Shown: positions 9,207 through 30,448, counted from the stretch's first letter. The stretch: 64,000 nucleotides of DNA from an uncultured Bacteroidota bacterium (GCA_903851365.1 CAINOB010000103.1:62001-126000); one strand, 5' to 3'. Numbers and translations are program-made. The notes: generated by a model from the letters alone, not told the origin.

Positions 9207-10466
9207 GAAGATTTTCTACAATATCTCTGGAAATATGGATTATTTCCGGCAGATAAATTATTTACAGCCGATCATCAAAATGTTCAGATCTTAACCCCCG
9301 GTCAGCTCAATACAGATGCCGGCCCCGATTTTTTAATGGCTCGTATCCGTATAAATGAGGCTGTTTGGGCGGGTCATGTAGAAATCCATGTAAAGGCTTC
9401 CGATTGGTACAGACATAATCATAATGAGGATCCTGCATATGATCCTGTGATCCTTCATGTTGTATATGAAGCGGATTGTAATGTCAAACGGACAAATGGT
9501 GACGATATTCCCATGGTAGTGATTCCCGTAAAACCCTCCTATATTGATAATTATCATCTGATGCTATCAGCCATGTCCCCAGTGCCTTGCGAGTCTTCCT
9601 GGAAAAAAGTGGAAACTTCGGAGGTCGAAAACTGGATCGTGAATATGGGTATTGAGCGCATGCAAACAAAATCAAGCGAAGTGTTTAAGCGACTCGAAGT
9701 GAATAAGGGAGGATGGGAGGAAACCTGGATTCAGATGATTTTTCGGTCGTTCGGTTTTGGAATAAACCAGGATTCTTTCGACAGGTTGGGTCAAGCGATA
9801 CCGCTAGCTGCAATCCGGTCAACCGGCTCAAATTTGTTCAGGCTCGAGGCGATACTTTTCGGACAAGCCGATCTTATTCCCGTGCGCAAACCTGATCCGT
9901 ATTGCAGGGCCCTCATGGTGGAATACGGTTTTGCGCGGCAGAAATTCAACCTGATACCGGTGACAAATCCCGGATGGAAGTTTTTAAGAATGCGACCGGC
10001 TAATTTTCCAACGGTCCGAATTGCTGAACTTGCAGCTTTTCTGGCTGGCAATCCCGACCGGATTGAGTCTGTACTGAGAACAGCGGAAGAGGAGATTAAA
10101 ATTATTACTGATTATCCTGTATCTTCTTATTGGCGAATTCATTATGATTTCGGTAAGAAATGGGAGGGCAGAACCACAGGCTTTGGAACCTCAACGCTCA
10201 ACCTGTTTTTCATTAATGCAGTTTTGCCTTTCAGGGCAAGCTATGCAAACCGAAATGGTGATCCCGGAGCCTGGGAAAAGTGGATGGACCGTCTCGAGAA
10301 ATTGCCACCAGAAAATAACAAGATTACACGTTTATGGACAAGCTTTGGATTTAGGGTACCTAATGCTTTTTATTCTCAGGCTTTTTTGCACTTGTATTCA
10401 AATTATTGCCGCACGAGGAATTGTCTGCATTGCCACATCGGCCAATGCTTGATTCGTGGCAGGTAA
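9201..10466 (+). CDS. DUF2851 family protein
   Basis: A 421-residue protein of the DUF2851 family, found across Bacteroidota and of unknown function. The N-terminus has the family hallmark pattern around ILTPGQLNTDAGPDF (about 32-46) and GHVEIHVKASDWYRHNH (about 59-75), which looks like a small acidic/His-rich active or metal site. Nothing suggests secretion or membrane spans. The last 25 residues hold four cysteines in the order C-x4-C-x2-C-x4-C with His between (CRTRNCLHCHIGQC), a plausible metal-binding knuckle. It is separated from pyrF by 64 bases, and a hairpin overlaps its start codon. Confidence 0.85.
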   Translation: MQEDFLQYLWKYGLFPADKLFTADHQNVQILTPGQLNTDAGPDFLMARIRINEAVWAGHVEIHVKASDWYRHNHNEDPAYDPVILHVVYEADCNVKRTNGDDIPMVVIPVKPSYIDNYHLMLSAMSPVPCESSWKKVETSEVENWIVNMGIERMQTKSSEVFKRLEVNKGGWEETWIQMIFRSFGFGINQDSFDRLGQAIPLAAIRSTGSNLFRLEAILFGQADLIPVRKPDPYCRALMVEYGFARQKFNLIPVTNPGWKFLRMRPANFPTVRIAELAAFLAGNPDRIESVLRTAEEEIKIITDYPVSSYWRIHYDFGKKWEGRTTGFGTSTLNLFFINAVLPFRASYANRNGDPGAWEKWMDRLEKLPPENNKITRLWTSFGFRVPNAFYSQAFLHLYSNYCRTRNCLHCHIGQCLIRGR

Positions 10467-10497
10467 GGCTGATAGGATTTTTTGTACCTTTACCCTA

Positions 10498-11406
10498 ATG
10501 CTGAAAATCCTGATTACCGGTGCCAATGGACTTGTCGGACAAACACTTGTTCGTAAGTGCTTGCTCCTATCCGGATATAATATTCTTGCCACGTCGGCTT
10601 CGGAATGCAAAATCAGGGAGTTCGATCCGGTTCGATACCGGCAAATGGATATTACCGATAAGGTCCTGGTTACAGAAGTTTTTGAAGATTTCAGACCGGA
10701 TGTTGTTATTCATTGTGCCGCCATGACTCAAGTGGACCCGTGCGAGCTCGATCCTGATGTCTGCGATCGAGTTAATATCGAAGGAACCCGAATAGTTGCA
10801 AAAGCCTCAGAAAATATTGGCGCAAGATTCATTTACCTTTCAACTGATTTTGTTTTCGATGGCCTCAAAGGCCCTTACAGCGAGGATGATGAGCCGGGCC
10901 CCGTTAGTGTTTATGGATGGTCGAAGTTGCAGGGAGAATTCATTACCAAGTCGTTGAAGGTTCCGTGGGTGATTGTCCGTACAATTCTGGTTTATGGTGT
11001 TACCTTTTCCATGAACCGATCTAACCTGGTTACCTGGGTGCGGGATTCACTCACACGTAATAGCCCAGTCAGGGTGGTCGAGGACCAGTTTCGCATGCCT
11101 ACCCTGGTTGATGATCTGGCCGAGGGGATTATCAGGATAATTGAAAAAGAGAAGACCGGGATTTTTCATCTGTCAGGTCCGGAAATGATCTCAGTGTATA
11201 ATTTCGCCTTGGAAATTGCACGATTTTTTGGCCTTGATGAGTCTCTGATAACAAATATTCCATCGGTTTCGCTTAACCAGCCTGGCAAACGACCGGTTTC
11301 AACAGGATTCTGCCTGGATAAGGCAATCGAAGAATTGGAATATTATCCAAAAAATACTCAGGATGGCCTGGCGGTGGTACAGAATTTGATTGAAGAATTT
11401 TCATGA
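10498..11406 (+). CDS. NAD(P)-dependent sugar reductase, RmlD-like SDR
   Basis: A 302-residue extended short-chain dehydrogenase resembling dTDP-4-dehydrorhamnose reductase. It has the N-terminal Rossmann motif ITGANGLVGQTL (residues 5-16), MDITDK, the catalytic STDFVFDG (about 116-123) and the Y-x3-K pair in VYGWSKLQGE (about 137-146). No other rml gene is near, so the substrate (a nucleotide-sugar intermediate, or possibly a methionine adenosyltransferase beta-like role) is open. ATG 10498 is chosen over a GTG at 10456 that would overlap the previous gene; TACCTTTA at 10485-10492 resembles a -7 box. Its stop overlaps the next start as ATGA, which couples it to the lipoprotein island. Confidence 0.85.
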   Translation: MLKILITGANGLVGQTLVRKCLLLSGYNILATSASECKIREFDPVRYRQMDITDKVLVTEVFEDFRPDVVIHCAAMTQVDPCELDPDVCDRVNIEGTRIVAKASENIGARFIYLSTDFVFDGLKGPYSEDDEPGPVSVYGWSKLQGEFITKSLKVPWVIVRTILVYGVTFSMNRSNLVTWVRDSLTRNSPVRVVEDQFRMPTLVDDLAEGIIRIIEKEKTGIFHLSGPEMISVYNFALEIARFFGLDESLITNIPSVSLNQPGKRPVSTGFCLDKAIEELEYYPKNTQDGLAVVQNLIEEFS

Positions 11407-11897
11407 AAAAGATTTTCTTCTGGTTGATTGCATTATCCTTGCTGATAGGTAGTTGCGCCCGGGAACCGGCTTCTGACCCTGCTGTCGGATCAGTTAGTTC
11501 GTCGAAATGCAAAAGCCATGGAGTCAAGTCAACCTCGGACCACGCTGCAAATCAGGATTGTATGCAGTATAATTGGGTGTCTGGTGATACATTGAACATC
11601 AAACATGTGAATGCAGGGTTTAACTGCTGTCCCGGAGGTGTCGTCGCTGAGCTTAAAATTTCCGGTGATACTCTGGTTGTTACCGAAAAGGAAAACTCCT
11701 CTCTCTGTGATTGCAATTGCCTGTATGACCTGAACTATCAACTCAGCGGAATCAGTAAAGGTACCTGGTGGATCAAAGTGGTGGAACCTTATGTCCAGCA
11801 GCCATCTTCTCCGCAAATTCTGTTTAAAATTGAATTAAGAAAAAATGAATCCGGCGAGTTTTGCATCACCCGAACCGGATATCCTTGGGGAACATGA
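11403..11897 (+). CDS. Eight-cysteine lipoprotein, copy 1 (unknown function)
   Basis: A 164-residue predicted lipoprotein: MKKIFFWLIALSLLIGSC gives a lipobox ending at Cys18. The mature part has eight cysteines: KCKSHG, QDCMQ, GFNCCPGG, LCDCNCLYDL and EFCITR. The sequence is beta-rich (alternating hydrophobic strands around SGDTLVVTE and WWIKVVEPYV). All eight cysteines are matched in the gene at 13196, which makes the two paralogues. The start overlaps the RmlD-like stop (ATGA) and the stop overlaps a possible start of the serpin gene (ATGA). I do not recognise a named family; the Cys spacing could form disulfides in the periplasm or at the surface, or bind a metal. Confidence 0.8.
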   Translation: MKKIFFWLIALSLLIGSCAREPASDPAVGSVSSSKCKSHGVKSTSDHAANQDCMQYNWVSGDTLNIKHVNAGFNCCPGGVVAELKISGDTLVVTEKENSSLCDCNCLYDLNYQLSGISKGTWWIKVVEPYVQQPSSPQILFKIELRKNESGEFCITRTGYPWGT

Positions 11898-13138
11898 TTT
11901 TAATGAATAATAGCTCTCTTATGAAAACAGGTATTTGGACCTTATTTGGATTCGCTGTTATAGCGATAATATCTTCCTGCACAAAAGAAAAAGATTATGA
12001 GCCTGTTCCACTAAATCTGCCGCAAAAGTCAGCCGCTGTAATTACTGCGGACAATACTTTTGGCCTGGATTTATATTCCCGGCTTTCAGGTTCAGCAAAA
12101 TCCGGAACCAATTTAATGATTTCACCTTTGAGCGTATCGCAAGCCTTGTCGATGACGCTTAATGGTGCAAGTGGCGATACAAAAACGGCTATGGAGGAGG
12201 CGTTAAGGGTAGCAGGATACGACAGGGATGAATTGAATGAGTTAAATAGGACATTGATTTCAGCCCTTGTTGCTCATGATCCAAAGGTGGTCATATCAGT
12301 GGCAAATTCGATATGGTACCGGCAGGAATATACCATCCAGTCTGACTTTGTTACTCGAAACCAGACTTATTATAATGCTGAGGTCAGGCCGGTGGATTTT
12401 GCAGCTGCAGGTTGTAAGGATTTAATCAACAACTGGGTTTCCGATAAAACAAACAAGAAAATCACTCAGATTGTTGATCAGATTAATCCCGATGCTTTCA
12501 TGTTTCTGATCAACGCAGTCTACTTTAAAGGTGCCTGGACCAATGAATTTAACCCCAAAAACACAAACAGACAATCCTTTAATCTTGAAGATGGATCTAA
12601 TACTCAGGTTGACATGATGCATAAGAAGATGGATCTGAATATGTTTTCCAACGAAACCTTCACTTCTGTGGAACTGCCTTATGGAAAGGGCAATTGGAGG
12701 ATGTTTCTGTTTCTCCCGCAAACAGGTAAAAAAGTTGCCGATGTTGAAAGTACCCTGAACGCTGAAAACTGGAATAAATGGTTGCTGCGCTACGATACCG
12801 TTCGCGAGGTTCAATTCTCACTTCCCAAATTCACTTTCTCGAACGACGAAAACCTGAAAGATGCCCTTACGGCGATGGGTATGGGCGTCGCATTCACTGA
12901 TAAGGCTGATTTTACTGGTATTCTGCAACAGGGAGGATTGCAGATTACCGGAGTTAAACACAAAACTTTTATTGAGGTTAATGAAGAGGGTACCGTGGCT
13001 GCAGCTGTAACTTCGGTAGAGGTTGGCGTTACCTCGATAGGAAATTTTATCAGTTTCGATAAGCCTTTCCTGTTTGTCATAGCGGAGAAAACTACGGGGA
13101 CAATATTATTTGTCGGACGTTTTATGAAACCAGAATGA
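11894..13138 (+). CDS. Serpin-family lipoprotein (protease inhibitor)
   Basis: A 414-residue serpin with a lipoprotein signal (hydrophobic FGFAVIAIISSC). Serpin landmarks include NLMISPLSVSQALSMTLNGASGDT near residue 75, FLINAVYFKGAWTNEF near 205 and the C-terminal FDKPFLFVIAEKTTGTILFVGRF. The reactive-loop hinge is EEGTVAAAVT near residues 363-372, with small residues at P12-P9, the pattern of inhibitory serpins that form covalent complexes with proteases. Counting from the hinge puts Thr-Ser at P1-P1'. A surface serpin of this phylum, miropin of Tannerella forsythia, blocks host and bacterial proteases. The start at 11894 uses an ATGA overlap with the previous gene; ATG 11921 (MKTGIWTL) is an equally good signal-peptide start. 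Confidence 0.92.
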   Translation: MILMNNSSLMKTGIWTLFGFAVIAIISSCTKEKDYEPVPLNLPQKSAAVITADNTFGLDLYSRLSGSAKSGTNLMISPLSVSQALSMTLNGASGDTKTAMEEALRVAGYDRDELNELNRTLISALVAHDPKVVISVANSIWYRQEYTIQSDFVTRNQTYYNAEVRPVDFAAAGCKDLINNWVSDKTNKKITQIVDQINPDAFMFLINAVYFKGAWTNEFNPKNTNRQSFNLEDGSNTQVDMMHKKMDLNMFSNETFTSVELPYGKGNWRMFLFLPQTGKKVADVESTLNAENWNKWLLRYDTVREVQFSLPKFTFSNDENLKDALTAMGMGVAFTDKADFTGILQQGGLQITGVKHKTFIEVNEEGTVAAAVTSVEVGVTSIGNFISFDKPFLFVIAEKTTGTILFVGRFMKPE

Positions 13139-13170
13139 CAATGTGCTAATGTGCTGATTTGCCAATTTGC
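13139..13170. repeat. Short tandem repeat, 8-base period
   Basis: Four 8-base units (CAATGTGC, TAATGTGC, TGATTTGC, CAATTTGC) begin at the base after the serpin stop codon, and a fifth decayed unit follows. It fills most of the 57-base gap to the next lipoprotein. Confidence 0.75.
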
Positions 13171-13195
13171 TAATTAAAGAATTAAGTCAGAGGTT

Positions 13196-13693
13196 ATGAA
13201 GAAAGCGGTGATTATGGCAGGGTTGGTAGTGATTACGGGAATAATCTGGTCATGCGAGAGAAACAACAGTAATGGAACACTTGCGATTTCAGTTACTTCG
13301 GATATGATTTGCAAGAGTAATGGATTGCTTAAAACTCAGGGAACTCCATTGGAAAATTCATGCATAAACTACACTTATTACGGTGATAGCTTACTTTCGC
13401 TTAAGCATATTAATGCAAGTTTTAATTGTTGTCCCGAAAAGTTTTTGGTCGAGATTGAAGTAAAGGGAGACAGCTTGATTATCCATGAAGATGAATTAAA
13501 GCATGGCTGCAGGTGTAACTGCGTTTTTGATTTGGATATTTCGGTACGCAATCTCCCGGCAGATAAATACCATGTCAGAATTGTTGAACCCTATGTAAAT
13601 AATACCTGGCCAAGATTAATTTTTGACCTGGATCTGAAGAAAACCACCACCGGACAATACTGTGTGACCAGGCCTGAAGGTTGGTGGCGATGA
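13196..13693 (+). CDS. Eight-cysteine lipoprotein, copy 2 (unknown function)
   Basis: A 165-residue predicted lipoprotein (MKKAVIMAGLVVITGIIWSC, lipidated Cys20). It is paralogous to the gene at 11403: both share ICKSNG/KCKSHG, HINASFNCCP/HVNAGFNCCP, CRCNCVFDL/CDCNCLYDL, RIVEPYV/KVVEPYV and YCVTR/FCITR, so all eight mature cysteines are kept while the rest has diverged widely. That pattern suggests selection on the Cys framework. The two copies flank the serpin, which suggests a duplication with the serpin between, or an inserted serpin. No named domain is recognised. Confidence 0.8.
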   Translation: MKKAVIMAGLVVITGIIWSCERNNSNGTLAISVTSDMICKSNGLLKTQGTPLENSCINYTYYGDSLLSLKHINASFNCCPEKFLVEIEVKGDSLIIHEDELKHGCRCNCVFDLDISVRNLPADKYHVRIVEPYVNNTWPRLIFDLDLKKTTTGQYCVTRPEGWWR

Positions 13694-13694
13694 G

Positions 13695-13723
13695 GAAGAC
13701 AGGAGACACCAAGACACTTAGAC
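13695..13723. repeat. Short degenerate tandem repeat, 7-8-base period
   Basis: Imperfect units ending in AGACA (GAAGACA, GGAGACA, CCAAGACA, then CTTAGAC) fill the short gap after the stop of the second eight-cysteine lipoprotein. It is weaker than the tracts at 13139, 14414 and 55205. Confidence 0.5.
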
Positions 13724-13727
13724 GAAA

Positions 13728-14411
13728 ATGAAAAATAAGTACTTTATCTCAGCGATTTCGATTTTAATGATTTTTGGAAATTTCGTTTCATGCCGTTTAG
13801 AACCAAATGAAGATTGTGGCTGCGTGTTTAAAAAAGGCATTATTGTATTTGCCGGAGCGCCTGAGGTTGATGGATGCGGATGGGAGATCCTGGTTGATTC
13901 GGTATACTACCATCCTGTAAATCTTGAGGCAGATTATAAAGTGGATGCCCTGCCGGTGCTTTTAAAATTCGTTGCCGATCCTGAGGAATTCAGATGCGGC
14001 CGGGGTGGGGTAACCTACTCCTCCATAAGGATTACAGAGATTAAAATGAATCCACCTGAGGTGAAGAATCTGAATAATGATGAATGGGAAAAGTATTCGA
14101 TGGATCCTTTTCATCTGGATTCAGCTTATGTCAAAGGAGATTGCCTGTTTATGCAGGTAGGATACAGCGGAGGGTGTCGTGAACATGAGTTTAATTTATG
14201 GAGATTGCCTCCAAATGCACTTAATCCGCCGCCGATTGAGATAGCACTGTCGCATAAGTCTAATGGTGACGTTTGCGAAGCCTATATAACCAGGTGGCTG
14301 ATATATTCCCTCCTTCCGATTCGCGAAGACGGTAAGCACGAGGTCAAGTTTTTACTAAGAGGTTCACCCGAGATGTCGGCCTATTTTGGGACGTTTATCT
14401 ACAAATATTAA
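13728..14411 (+). CDS. Cysteine-rich lipoprotein, two-domain (unknown function)
   Basis: A 227-residue predicted lipoprotein (signal MKNKYFISAISILMIFGNFV, lipidated Cys22). The mature part looks like two small beta domains. The first (about 28-105) contains CGCVF, EVDGCGWEILVDSVYYHPVN and FRCGRGGVTYSSIRI. The second (about 125-227) contains GDCLFMQVGYSGGCREHEF and GDVCEAYITRWL. The VDGCGW and YSGGCxEHxF patterns are ones I recall in other Bacteroidota lipoproteins of unknown role, without a name I can give. It closes the run of four adjacent genes for lipoproteins that includes the serpin; the following gene, rpsO, has its own promoter. Confidence 0.75.
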   Translation: MKNKYFISAISILMIFGNFVSCRLEPNEDCGCVFKKGIIVFAGAPEVDGCGWEILVDSVYYHPVNLEADYKVDALPVLLKFVADPEEFRCGRGGVTYSSIRITEIKMNPPEVKNLNNDEWEKYSMDPFHLDSAYVKGDCLFMQVGYSGGCREHEFNLWRLPPNALNPPPIEIALSHKSNGDVCEAYITRWLIYSLLPIREDGKHEVKFLLRGSPEMSAYFGTFIYKY

Positions 14412-14518: not shown

Positions 14519-14788
14519 ATGTACTTAACGGCAGAAAAGAAACAAGAATTTTTCGAGAAGTACGGGAAGTCCAATACAGATACCGGTTCACCAGAGGGAC
14601 AGGTAGCTTTATTCTCATACCGTATATCTCATTTGACGGAGCATTTGAAGAAAAACCGCAAGGACTTCAGCACCCAGAGATCATTGATCAGATTAGTAGG
14701 AAAACGCAGGCGACTGCTAAACTACCTGAAGGACCAGGATATAAATCGCTACAGGGCGATTATCAAAGAATTGAACTTACGTAAATAA
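14519..14788 (+). CDS. rpsO: 30S ribosomal protein S15
   Basis: An 89-residue S15, the primary binder of the central domain of 16S rRNA. Conserved stretches include the [23 protein letters not shown] helix region (residues 22-44) and the RNA-binding [14 protein letters not shown] near 64-77. It has its own promoter upstream and a strong hairpin with a T-run after it, then pnp, the same gene order as in many bacteria. Confidence 0.98.
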
Positions 14789-27604: not shown

Positions 27605-30448
27605 ATGATTGCTGACAATAGATCTGGATTTTCTGGCCTGATCAGGTTTTTGATCCTGGGATTTGCTGTCTTCTTCCAGCAAGTGAAAGCCCAACCTGCC
27701 GATACCGTTTTGTTGCCGATAAAAACCCTAAGGGTCTCAATTTATATCTTTCAGGATGATGCCGGGCAAAGGAACTTTAGCGCGGATTCGGCCGGTCAGG
27801 TGAAGTTCCTTCATGAGCTTACCGATTGGGTAAATCACAGGCTTGCCAACCTTGATACGCTAAAACCTGCAATGCCCTCTCCGTTCGTTGGAGATAGCAG
27901 GGTAAGGATCAGGCTCGATACCATTTATTATATAAGGGATAACAGGGCCTGGGATTGCTCGGTAGATATTGATGCACCCTATATGCGTGATCAATACGTA
28001 GATGCCAGTAAATTACTCGATTACCGGCAGAAATATCAGACCCTTCCCATTTTTATCGGGGCCAATTATTCCGTCATCGGAGGACATTCGAGGAATATTG
28101 GTGACCGCGGGTATATTGCGGTTCGGGGCTATTATGAAAAATTCCTGAGTCAGCCAAAATCAGATGCACTTGATGAATGCGGGCGAAACCTGGTTCATGA
28201 ACTTGGACATTGTGCCGGACTTTCGCATAACTTTTCGGGTGGTCCGGATGGTGACCAATGCGATGATTGCGGCGATAACGGCTGTCCTCTCGAAGGCACA
28301 TCGAATAATATTATGGATTACTGGCCATCCTACGGATATGCATTGTCGAAATGTCAGTTTAATCAAATGCAATTCTGCCTTAACGGAGGAATGGGGAATA
28401 TCTCTGAGGCAGTGATCAATGACAGCTGCTATAAGGTTTCGGGTATCGGGTATCAGGTATCGGGAGGAGATACTGTTGTCATAAAAGATACGGTTTATGC
28501 GCATCAGGATTGGCTGATAAAAAGCGGAGGATATTTAAAGGTTACCGGATATCTGTCCATGCCTTCGGATACCAAGATTACTTTGGAAGCCGGTGCCAGC
28601 CTTGTTATCGACGGAGGCACTATAGGGAACCTTTGCGGCGATTTGTGGTCAGGATTAAGGCCCGAAGTTTCTACACGATCAAATCCTGCAAGAATAACTG
28701 TCAGCCATAATGGGACAATCGAAAATGCTTATACGGGAATCCTGGCAGCCAGATTACTGGAGGTTAATCTTGAGAATTCAGTATTTCGAAATTGTTCCGA
28801 GTCATTGGTTTTTCCAGAGATTTCGGTTGATTCCCTTAGCCTGAGCAACTGCTCCTTTCTGATCACCACAAAATTGAATCATTACGAGGAGGGCTTGACA
28901 CCGGTTAGTTTTTTGCGAACCGACGGTATTTCCCGGTTGTCGGTCACCAATTCGCGTTTTATCAATGTACCGGGCACCTCAATCACTGACGCAAATTGGC
29001 TGGGTATTGGTATTATCGCAGCTGCAGGCTCAATTTTTATCAATAAATGTGAGTTTACAAACCTCACAACCGCATTGGATCTGAGCACCCAATTTTCTGA
29101 TTCAAAATTGAGAATCATTGAAAATTCATTTGTTGATAATAAGATTGGTATTAAAACTGATTTTGCCGGGCTTCAGAAAATTTCCAATAATCACCTGACC
29201 CTGCAAAGGTTTAACAGCGGATATTCTTTAGGGATTTTGCTCTGTTTTCCAGATCGCTTTTCCGTTGACCATAACCGTTTCGAATCGTTGTATGGGGGAG
29301 GACAGCAGGCTGGATTGGCAATTATTAGCCCGTCTCATCAAAATTCTCCTGTTTTCAATAACAAATTTTCCAATCTGCCACTTGGTGTTTATCTTGATGG
29401 TCCACCTGCAATTGATCTCGCCTTATTTCAATGGGCTAAATTTCCGGGATCAGAAAATCTTCTGCAATTAGGACCGCAATTGCGGTTTAATGAATTTGAC
29501 ACTGTTTCGCTCCCTTTTGCCGTATCCACCGATTCTGTGTTTGGATCAGCAATCGGAACTCCGGAGAAAATTCGTTCCGTGGATTCTCTTCCACCGACCC
29601 GCTGGAATATTGGTGGCTATCTATGGTACAATAATCAGGTACCGATGGTAGCATTTAATGGTTGGAGGCAGGGTTCAGAAGCTTTACCTGATCACGGTTT
29701 GTATTGGTTTATGAATTATATCGGGGTAACAAATCCGAACATGACTTGTGAAGGCTGCATTGGCGGGGTAATGGTCAACCGGAATTCTGAACTTATTGAA
29801 TATCTGAATAAACTTGCCAATTATCAGCACACCGAAGAGAGCTATAATGGGTCTGATATTTATCAGGCACTTCAGCGAGTTTCCAAGGTGCCTGCAGTTT
29901 TAAGGTCCTCAATATTTTCCTCCTGGTGGGATAAATACAATCCGGGAGAAAATATCTGGCTTTCGGCATCACTTGCGTCAATCGCCGGCAACTTTGTGAG
30001 GGCTGACACCCTCCTGACCGTTTTAGGAACGATACTTTCGCAAAAGAACCTTTTGGAATGGAGTTCTTCGCAACCGTTGAAAAATATTTTTAATTCATCC
30101 AGGCAAAAGAGTTCTGCTGATTTTCAATTCATTTTTCCGGATTTATCCTGTTTTCGCTTTGTCAGGCCACAGCAATCTGAACCTCTTACTTCTGGGTTTT
30201 TTATTTACCCTAATCCGGCTGAAGATTATTTATTGGTCGAACCCAATGCAGGCTATTCATTCAACAATGTCTGGCAAGGACGTATTACTTCAGCCATCGG
30301 GAGTTATTCGAAAGAAATCAGGATTGGTTCCTGGCAGGATCAGAAATTGAACATTTCAGATTTGCCTTCAGGGTTATATATCATTGAATTTTATACGGGG
30401 AATAAATACCTTGGCGCCGCAAAGTTGATAAAAATCACACATCGATAG
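27605..30448 (+). CDS. T9SS-exported metzincin-like protease with beta-helix region
   Basis: A 947-residue exported protein. A signal peptide (LIRFLILGFAVFFQQVKA) is followed by a metzincin-type zinc protease domain with HELGHCAGLSH (198-208, fitting HExxHxxGxxH) and a Met-turn-like NIMDYW near 235. Residues about 300-620 are rich in short strand repeats with Asn turns (LENSVFRNCSES, LSLSNCSFLIT, LRIIENSFVDN), as in right-handed parallel beta-helices. The last 90 residues are a type IX secretion sorting domain (YPNPAEDYLLVEPN, SDLPSGLYIIEFYTGNKYLGAAKLIKI). A 7-base-period repeat lies within the frame at 28434-28468, encoding VSGIGYQVSGG. Substrate unknown; it probably acts at or outside the cell surface. 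Confidence 0.82.
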   Translation: MIADNRSGFSGLIRFLILGFAVFFQQVKAQPADTVLLPIKTLRVSIYIFQDDAGQRNFSADSAGQVKFLHELTDWVNHRLANLDTLKPAMPSPFVGDSRVRIRLDTIYYIRDNRAWDCSVDIDAPYMRDQYVDASKLLDYRQKYQTLPIFIGANYSVIGGHSRNIGDRGYIAVRGYYEKFLSQPKSDALDECGRNLVHELGHCAGLSHNFSGGPDGDQCDDCGDNGCPLEGTSNNIMDYWPSYGYALSKCQFNQMQFCLNGGMGNISEAVINDSCYKVSGIGYQVSGGDTVVIKDTVYAHQDWLIKSGGYLKVTGYLSMPSDTKITLEAGASLVIDGGTIGNLCGDLWSGLRPEVSTRSNPARITVSHNGTIENAYTGILAARLLEVNLENSVFRNCSESLVFPEISVDSLSLSNCSFLITTKLNHYEEGLTPVSFLRTDGISRLSVTNSRFINVPGTSITDANWLGIGIIAAAGSIFINKCEFTNLTTALDLSTQFSDSKLRIIENSFVDNKIGIKTDFAGLQKISNNHLTLQRFNSGYSLGILLCFPDRFSVDHNRFESLYGGGQQAGLAIISPSHQNSPVFNNKFSNLPLGVYLDGPPAIDLALFQWAKFPGSENLLQLGPQLRFNEFDTVSLPFAVSTDSVFGSAIGTPEKIRSVDSLPPTRWNIGGYLWYNNQVPMVAFNGWRQGSEALPDHGLYWFMNYIGVTNPNMTCEGCIGGVMVNRNSELIEYLNKLANYQHTEESYNGSDIYQALQRVSKVPAVLRSSIFSSWWDKYNPGENIWLSASLASIAGNFVRADTLLTVLGTILSQKNLLEWSSSQPLKNIFNSSRQKSSADFQFIFPDLSCFRFVRPQQSEPLTSGFFIYPNPAEDYLLVEPNAGYSFNNVWQGRITSAIGSYSKEIRIGSWQDQKLNISDLPSGLYIIEFYTGNKYLGAAKLIKITHR
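28434..28468 (+). repeat. In-frame tandem repeat, 7-base period, inside a CDS
   Basis: Units AGGTTTC, GGGTATC, GGGTATC, AGGTATC and GGGAGGA run at exact 7-base spacing in the metzincin/beta-helix gene, at the junction between its protease and beta-helix regions. Thirty-five bases is not a multiple of three, yet the frame stays open. Confidence 0.7.

Follow-up and report, generated by a model that had tools for sequence, protein, structure and literature searches.

The window analysed here, a 64,000-nucleotide stretch from an uncultured Bacteroidota bacterium, is part of a 5.2 Mb Bacteroidales genome and carries on one strand, bounded by rmlD and rpsO, an island of four genes that encode an eight-cysteine lipoprotein (Cys8-1), an inhibitory-type serpin, a second eight-cysteine lipoprotein (Cys8-2) and a NigD-like lipoprotein (Table 1). 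To judge from sequence and predicted structure, there is about an even chance that the island functions as an anti-protease cassette at the cell surface, built around the serpin, with the NigD-like, potempin-like protein as a possible second inhibitor and the Cys8 proteins as optional accessories; its most likely role would be that of a shield against proteases from outside. All four lipoproteins would sit on the outer membrane and face outward. The serpin loop would act as bait, cut at VEVGVT/SIGNF or one residue to either side, upon which the cleaved serpin would snap shut and trap the attacking serine or cysteine protease, like miropin. The NigD-like protein, with its potempin-like OB domain, is the leading candidate for a further inhibitor, a reversible one, or for a surface stress protein. 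The Cys8 pair would contribute small, disulfide-locked beta-sandwich domains to the same surface, where they would be optional accessories or binding modules rather than obligate serpin carriers.

A preliminary description of the stretch had proposed four adjacent lipoprotein genes including a serpin, and both points were confirmed. Each of the four open reading frames (ORFs) has a signal peptide and a lipobox (SC-AREP, SSC-TKEK, SC-ERNN and SC-RLEP, in gene order), and the serpin, the only one found in this genome, contains a complete PF00079 domain (E 1.2e-111, profile positions 2-370 of 370). Among solved structures, the miropin entries (PDB 5ncs and kin; phmmer E 1.8e-83) are its nearest relatives. 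The hinge reads EEGTVAAAVT, with the inhibitory pattern G-T-x-A-A-A at P15-P10, and EEGTEAAAVT in nearly every relative, the form E-E-G-T-x-A-A-A-V-T being retained among the serpins of the host's GTDB family. The reactive loop, VEVGVTSIGNF, does not contain the V-K-T-S of the miropin loop. Within the GTDB family, the loop core of the orthologous serpins (serpin-1) follows a (V/I)Exx(V/L/F)TS(I/A)(G/T)N-like pattern and is less variable than in serpins of other families. That the serpin is non-inhibitory, with a function in binding or storage, and that the cluster is unrelated to proteases, is highly improbable; such a protein would be compatible with Thr in the canonical P1 position and with the loop being shorter than in miropin, but the G-T-x-A-A-A-V-T hinge follows the inhibitory pattern and the loop has been conserved within the family.

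Lipoproteins of Bacteroidota are exported to the surface by a published signal, C-X-K-(D/E)2-X (PMC5080379). The mature N-terminus of the window serpin, CTKEKDYE, resembles it, with Lys at +3 and one acidic residue, followed by K and D. Residues of the type C-x-K-(D/E) come after the lipobox in the serpin orthologues, and the exact signal occurs in several of these only (CNKEEY, CNKDDV and CDKEDI). Display of the serpin at the surface and trapping of proteases by it are thus both likely, as far as can be told from these features. Bacterial surface serpins had been called uncommon in the preliminary description; at least one serpin was found in 105 of 247 Bacteroidales genomes.

The fourth gene had been taken for a third cysteine-rich lipoprotein. 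It does encode a lipoprotein, but its predicted structure identifies it as NigD-like and not as another member of the eight-cysteine family. Sequence matches to NCBIfam NF051862 (E 1.9e-7, 31.1 bits against a cut-off of 60 bits) and to PF17415 (12.8 bits against a cut-off of 22.6 bits) remain below both thresholds, and a weak PF17415 match recurs in seven of eight aligned family members of the gene (best E 1.9e-4). The model, of moderate confidence (predicted local distance difference test score, pLDDT, 75), fits NigD structures over its full length at Z 12.3-11.5, including 3k0y (Z 12.3) and 4pqx (Z 11.8) over 172-174 residues, with a root-mean-square deviation (rmsd) of 10-11 Å for these two, probably a consequence of how the domains are oriented in the model. 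Next after the NigD group rank potempins A and D, which match the N-terminal OB domain of the protein at Z 8.6-7.9, whereas other OB proteins reach at most 5.6, and Foldseek matched the domain to potempins with a probability of 1.00. Superposition on potempin A gave Z 8.6 and an rmsd of 2.8 Å over 71 residues, at 21% identity.

Tannerella forsythia carries both potempins and miropin. Potempins are lipoprotein protease inhibitors of this species, encoded beside their target proteases (PMC7296668). NigD proteins are abundant surface lipoproteins (PMC13114119; PMC13088901), without an assigned function and part of a stress regulon (PMC13114119). Proteins of roughly 120 or 150 aa that contain just one half of the NigD-like protein, OB or sandwich, were also found (genomes G198, G229, G210 and G067; G056, G065, G171 and G031), which would suit a NigD assembled from two modules.

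The preliminary description had suggested a search for the same gene order in other Bacteroidota genomes, and within the host's GTDB family (12 genomes in four genera) the slot is kept and the order is conserved, with losses. The serpin is the constant member of the slot: serpin-1 is present in 12 of 12 genomes, forms one clade in the tree (support 100/99) and, on this tree, is vertically inherited. Cys8-2, which forms an orthologous clade of its own, is present in 11 of the 12. Cys8-1 was found in eight of the 11 genomes in which the upstream side is visible (absent from G252, G249 and G254), and the NigD-like gene in 10 of 11 evaluable genomes, G248 having no NigD beside Cys8-2. In G254 both Cys8 genes are lost and two serpins and the NigD-like gene are retained. 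The island genes are under purifying selection, with ratios of nonsynonymous to synonymous substitution rates (dN/dS) of approximately 0.04-0.13 where dS could be estimated; these values are only a rough guide because many dS values are saturated. A second, divergent serpin, absent from the window, was observed in the slot of five relatives (G022, G136, G249, G251 and G254). It forms a separate divergent lineage in the serpin tree, and the possibility that it is a recent duplicate was rejected.

Cys8-1 and Cys8-2 share 34% identity and 59% similarity (BLASTP E 4e-37). They retain all eight mature cysteines, as described previously, but the statement that they share little else was too strong. 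Characteristic motifs are H-x-N-[AS]-[GA]-F-N-C-C and C-x-C-x-C-L-Y-D. No Pfam or NCBIfam model covers Cys8, and the search for a known Pfam, NCBIfam or PDB family to which it might belong gave nothing credible. An AlphaFold2 model of Cys8-1, built from a 59-sequence alignment, is a confident all-beta sandwich (pLDDT 88, predicted template modelling score 0.79), for which Foldseek returned no PDB match at E <0.001. The eight cysteines are complete in 110 of 119 distinct complete Cys8 domains, and where they disappear they do so pairwise, C53 with C154 and C76 with C102, a pattern that points to structural disulfides C53-C154 and C76-C102. In the VIA structure search with Cys8, the four top rows were NigD-type C-terminal domains, at Z values of only 5.0-4.2. 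By eye, the C-C / C-x-C pattern of Cys8 seems aligned with the NigD C-terminal domain. The hhalign scores of Cys8 against that domain (13.1 and 12.5) lie inside the range of shuffled controls, which reach 17.8 and 20.8, and we do not claim that Cys8 is a stand-alone NigD C-terminal domain.

One genome collection, when scanned, yielded at least 154 places with Cys8, of which 79 loci were kept, from Bacteroidota, Ignavibacteria, Zixibacteria, Krumholzibacteria, Latescibacteria, Aminicenantes, Acidobacteria, Calditrichota and others. A serpin lies within 8 kb in nine of the 79 loci, namely seven from the window's family plus L102 and L104; outside the family the share is thus two of 72, and the circumstance that the preliminary description had named as refuting its idea, an eight-Cys family mostly without serpins, largely applies at this large scale. 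Of 393 genomes sampled from the order, 30 have Cys8 (called at E 1e-15 or better), 24 of them outside the family. Seventeen of these 24 also carry a serpin, the others being serpin-free, and Cys8 and serpin are adjacent in two of the 17 (G145 and G351). A naive uniform model, which ignores any general clustering of lipoprotein genes, predicts 0.05 adjacent pairs within 3 kb (P ~0.001). Since the trees separate the linked cases from the family, the linkage probably arose more than once, and Bacteroidales unrelated to the family have, on this sequence evidence, placed Cys8 beside serpins at least twice. The association of Cys8 with serpins is real and minor. Serpin and NigD are also neighbours in G176 and L102, and among 40 serpin loci sampled beyond the family no neighbour is constant.

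In Zixibacteria, Cys8 follows dockerin domains and, in one case, a C25-peptidase-like domain; such fusions indicate a general extracellular module. The domain is often duplicated: tandem Cys8 domains (two or three copies) were observed at L085, L091, L093, L099, L118, L120, L124, L131, L134 and L138, and tandems occur in Krumholzibacteria and other phyla as well. The tandem Cys8 proteins of loci L091, L099, L117, L118, L124, L125 and L134 have in common a C-terminal region that contains a GxKPCGGPWxYLxYS-like motif, and a Pfam scan of L125 and L134 detected no domain there. In G351 there is a long run of lipoprotein genes (L214:3269-18052) with two near-identical Cys8 genes, three serpins and an OB-only NigD relative, and some parts of this run look recently duplicated.

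The distribution of Cys8 bears on two other explanations of the island. The chief rival of the anti-protease cassette, possible although somewhat doubtful, is that the site downstream of rmlD is a permissive, co-transcribed slot for fast-evolving lipoprotein genes, in which the serpin acts alone and Cys8 and NigD are bystanders with unrelated surface roles. The scarcity of serpins near Cys8, the fusions to dockerins and a C25-like peptidase, the varying neighbours of serpins elsewhere, the persistence of serpins after loss of both Cys8 genes and the missing NigD of G248 all agree with this, but the order has been retained through four genera, and Cys8-serpin adjacency appears anew in G145, G351 and L102, with independent origins indicated by the trees. 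The other explanation, that of the preliminary description, is a surface defence module in which the serpin is presented, anchored or targeted by the Cys8 proteins as its binding partners. The defence module itself agrees with the conserved island, the inhibitory-type serpin and its export-like N-terminus, while Cys8 as a dedicated serpin partner is the part that was not supported. Of the ideas considered, the one with least support, and an unlikely one, is that of Cys8 as carrier or guide of the serpin: the serpin is flanked by Cys8 on both sides in most family genomes and adjacency recurs outside the family, but G254 keeps two serpins with no Cys8, G252 and G249 do without Cys8-1, and most Cys8 genomes outside the family have the two genes unlinked or are serpin-free. 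The serpin would need no carrier, because it has a lipid anchor of its own.

Several observations weigh against the anti-protease cassette. The island has no protease gene, whereas potempins adjoin their target protease, and the host belongs to an uncultured lineage, for which an attacking protease can only be postulated. The export signal is exact in only part of the serpin orthologues, the window serpin having CTKEKD. The match of the OB domain to potempins is purely structural and was obtained with a model of moderate confidence, sequence searches giving no link between the two, and NigD-like genes are mostly located elsewhere than beside serpins.

A bolder form of the cassette, which we regard as rather unlikely, would place three unrelated inhibitor folds on one surface: the serpin; NigD-like proteins, related to potempins over their full length; and Cys8 as a disulfide-rich inhibitor or protease-binding domain. 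If so, the ubiquitous NigD family would gain a role as protease inhibitors, and Cys8 would be a new inhibitor or protease-binding domain spread across many phyla. The genomic surroundings of bacterial serpins rarely give a clue to their role, and the family-wide slot supplies one. The presence in one slot of a miropin-like serpin and a NigD-like protein with a potempin-like first domain makes a protease-inhibitor role of the NigD proteins, ubiquitous in gut Bacteroidales (PMC13114119), directly testable. The analysis also brings to light an unnamed eight-cysteine extracellular domain present in many bacterial phyla and candidate phyla.

Table 1. Genes of the island, its flanks and the second serpin lineage of relatives (window positions unless a locus is named).
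Feature	Position	Strand	Remarks
RmlD-type NAD-dependent reductase (upstream flank)	10456..11406	+	PF04321 E 4e-67; same neighbour in relatives
Cys8-1, eight-cysteine lipoprotein, 164 aa, unnamed family	11403..11897	+	AlphaFold2 all-beta sandwich
Serpin lipoprotein	11921..13138 (likely start ATG 11921)	+	PF00079; orthologues use equivalent Met
Cys8-2, second eight-cysteine lipoprotein, 165 aa	13196..13693	+	34% identity to Cys8-1; own orthologous clade
NigD-like lipoprotein, 227 aa	13728..14411	+	OB domain ~33-110, C-terminal beta sandwich ~126-227
rpsO-like ORF, 89 aa (ribosomal protein S15, name from sequence)	14519..14788	+	Downstream flank
Second serpin lineage	L034:9374-10627, L035:3-1031, L165:3203-4438, L169:7252-8460, L171:7463-8677		Loops strongly unlike serpin-1

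The RmlD reductase gene is the conserved left border of the slot and lies outside the function of the cassette, and the rpsO-like ORF, followed by a pnp-like ORF, forms the right border. Of the two overlaps proposed earlier for Cys8-1, the one with rmlD is an exact ATGA overlap of start and stop (11403-11406). An ATGA overlap with the serpin also exists (11894-11897), but it needs an upstream serpin start not common to relatives; a gap of 23 nt is more likely, because the relatives start where their sequence corresponds to the in-frame ATG at 11921. Other open serpin starts are located at 11894 and 11861, and the codon of the lipobox Cys of the serpin is at 11978. Throughout the family islands all genes are co-directional with gaps mostly below 130 bp, which fits an operon, and a scan for terminators and promoters gave no excess over shuffled sequence. 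Between the serpin and Cys8-2, the window contains a short repeat, GTGCTAATGTGCTGATTTG (13143-13161), with 18 near-copies (at most two mismatches) genome-wide, compared with no copies of the same pattern read backwards. At 27605-30448, 13 kb from the serpin, the window encodes a secreted protein that has a beta-helix, a type IX secretion system sorting tail and, scoring below the Pfam cut-off, an M43-like zinc-protease motif.

Among known systems, miropin of T. forsythia (PDB 5ncs) has the serpin fold, the inhibitory hinge and a Bacteroidales origin in common with the window serpin. The loop of the window serpin is approximately four residues shorter, and the lysine of miropin (VKTS) is replaced by valine (GVTS); the specificity should therefore differ. 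Potempins A and D (PDB 8b2m, 8b2n, 8b2q and 8ehb) resemble the NigD-like protein in being lipoproteins with an OB-fold domain, but the latter is not a small protein and has two domains, with an extra C-terminal beta sandwich, and no protease is encoded among the slot genes, whereas a target-protease gene adjoins the potempins. Known NigD-like lipoproteins (3k0y, 4pqx and 3qwn; PF17415; NF051862) share with the fourth protein the lipoprotein character and the two-domain fold of OB domain and beta sandwich, from which it differs in scoring below both curated cut-offs and in adjoining a serpin.

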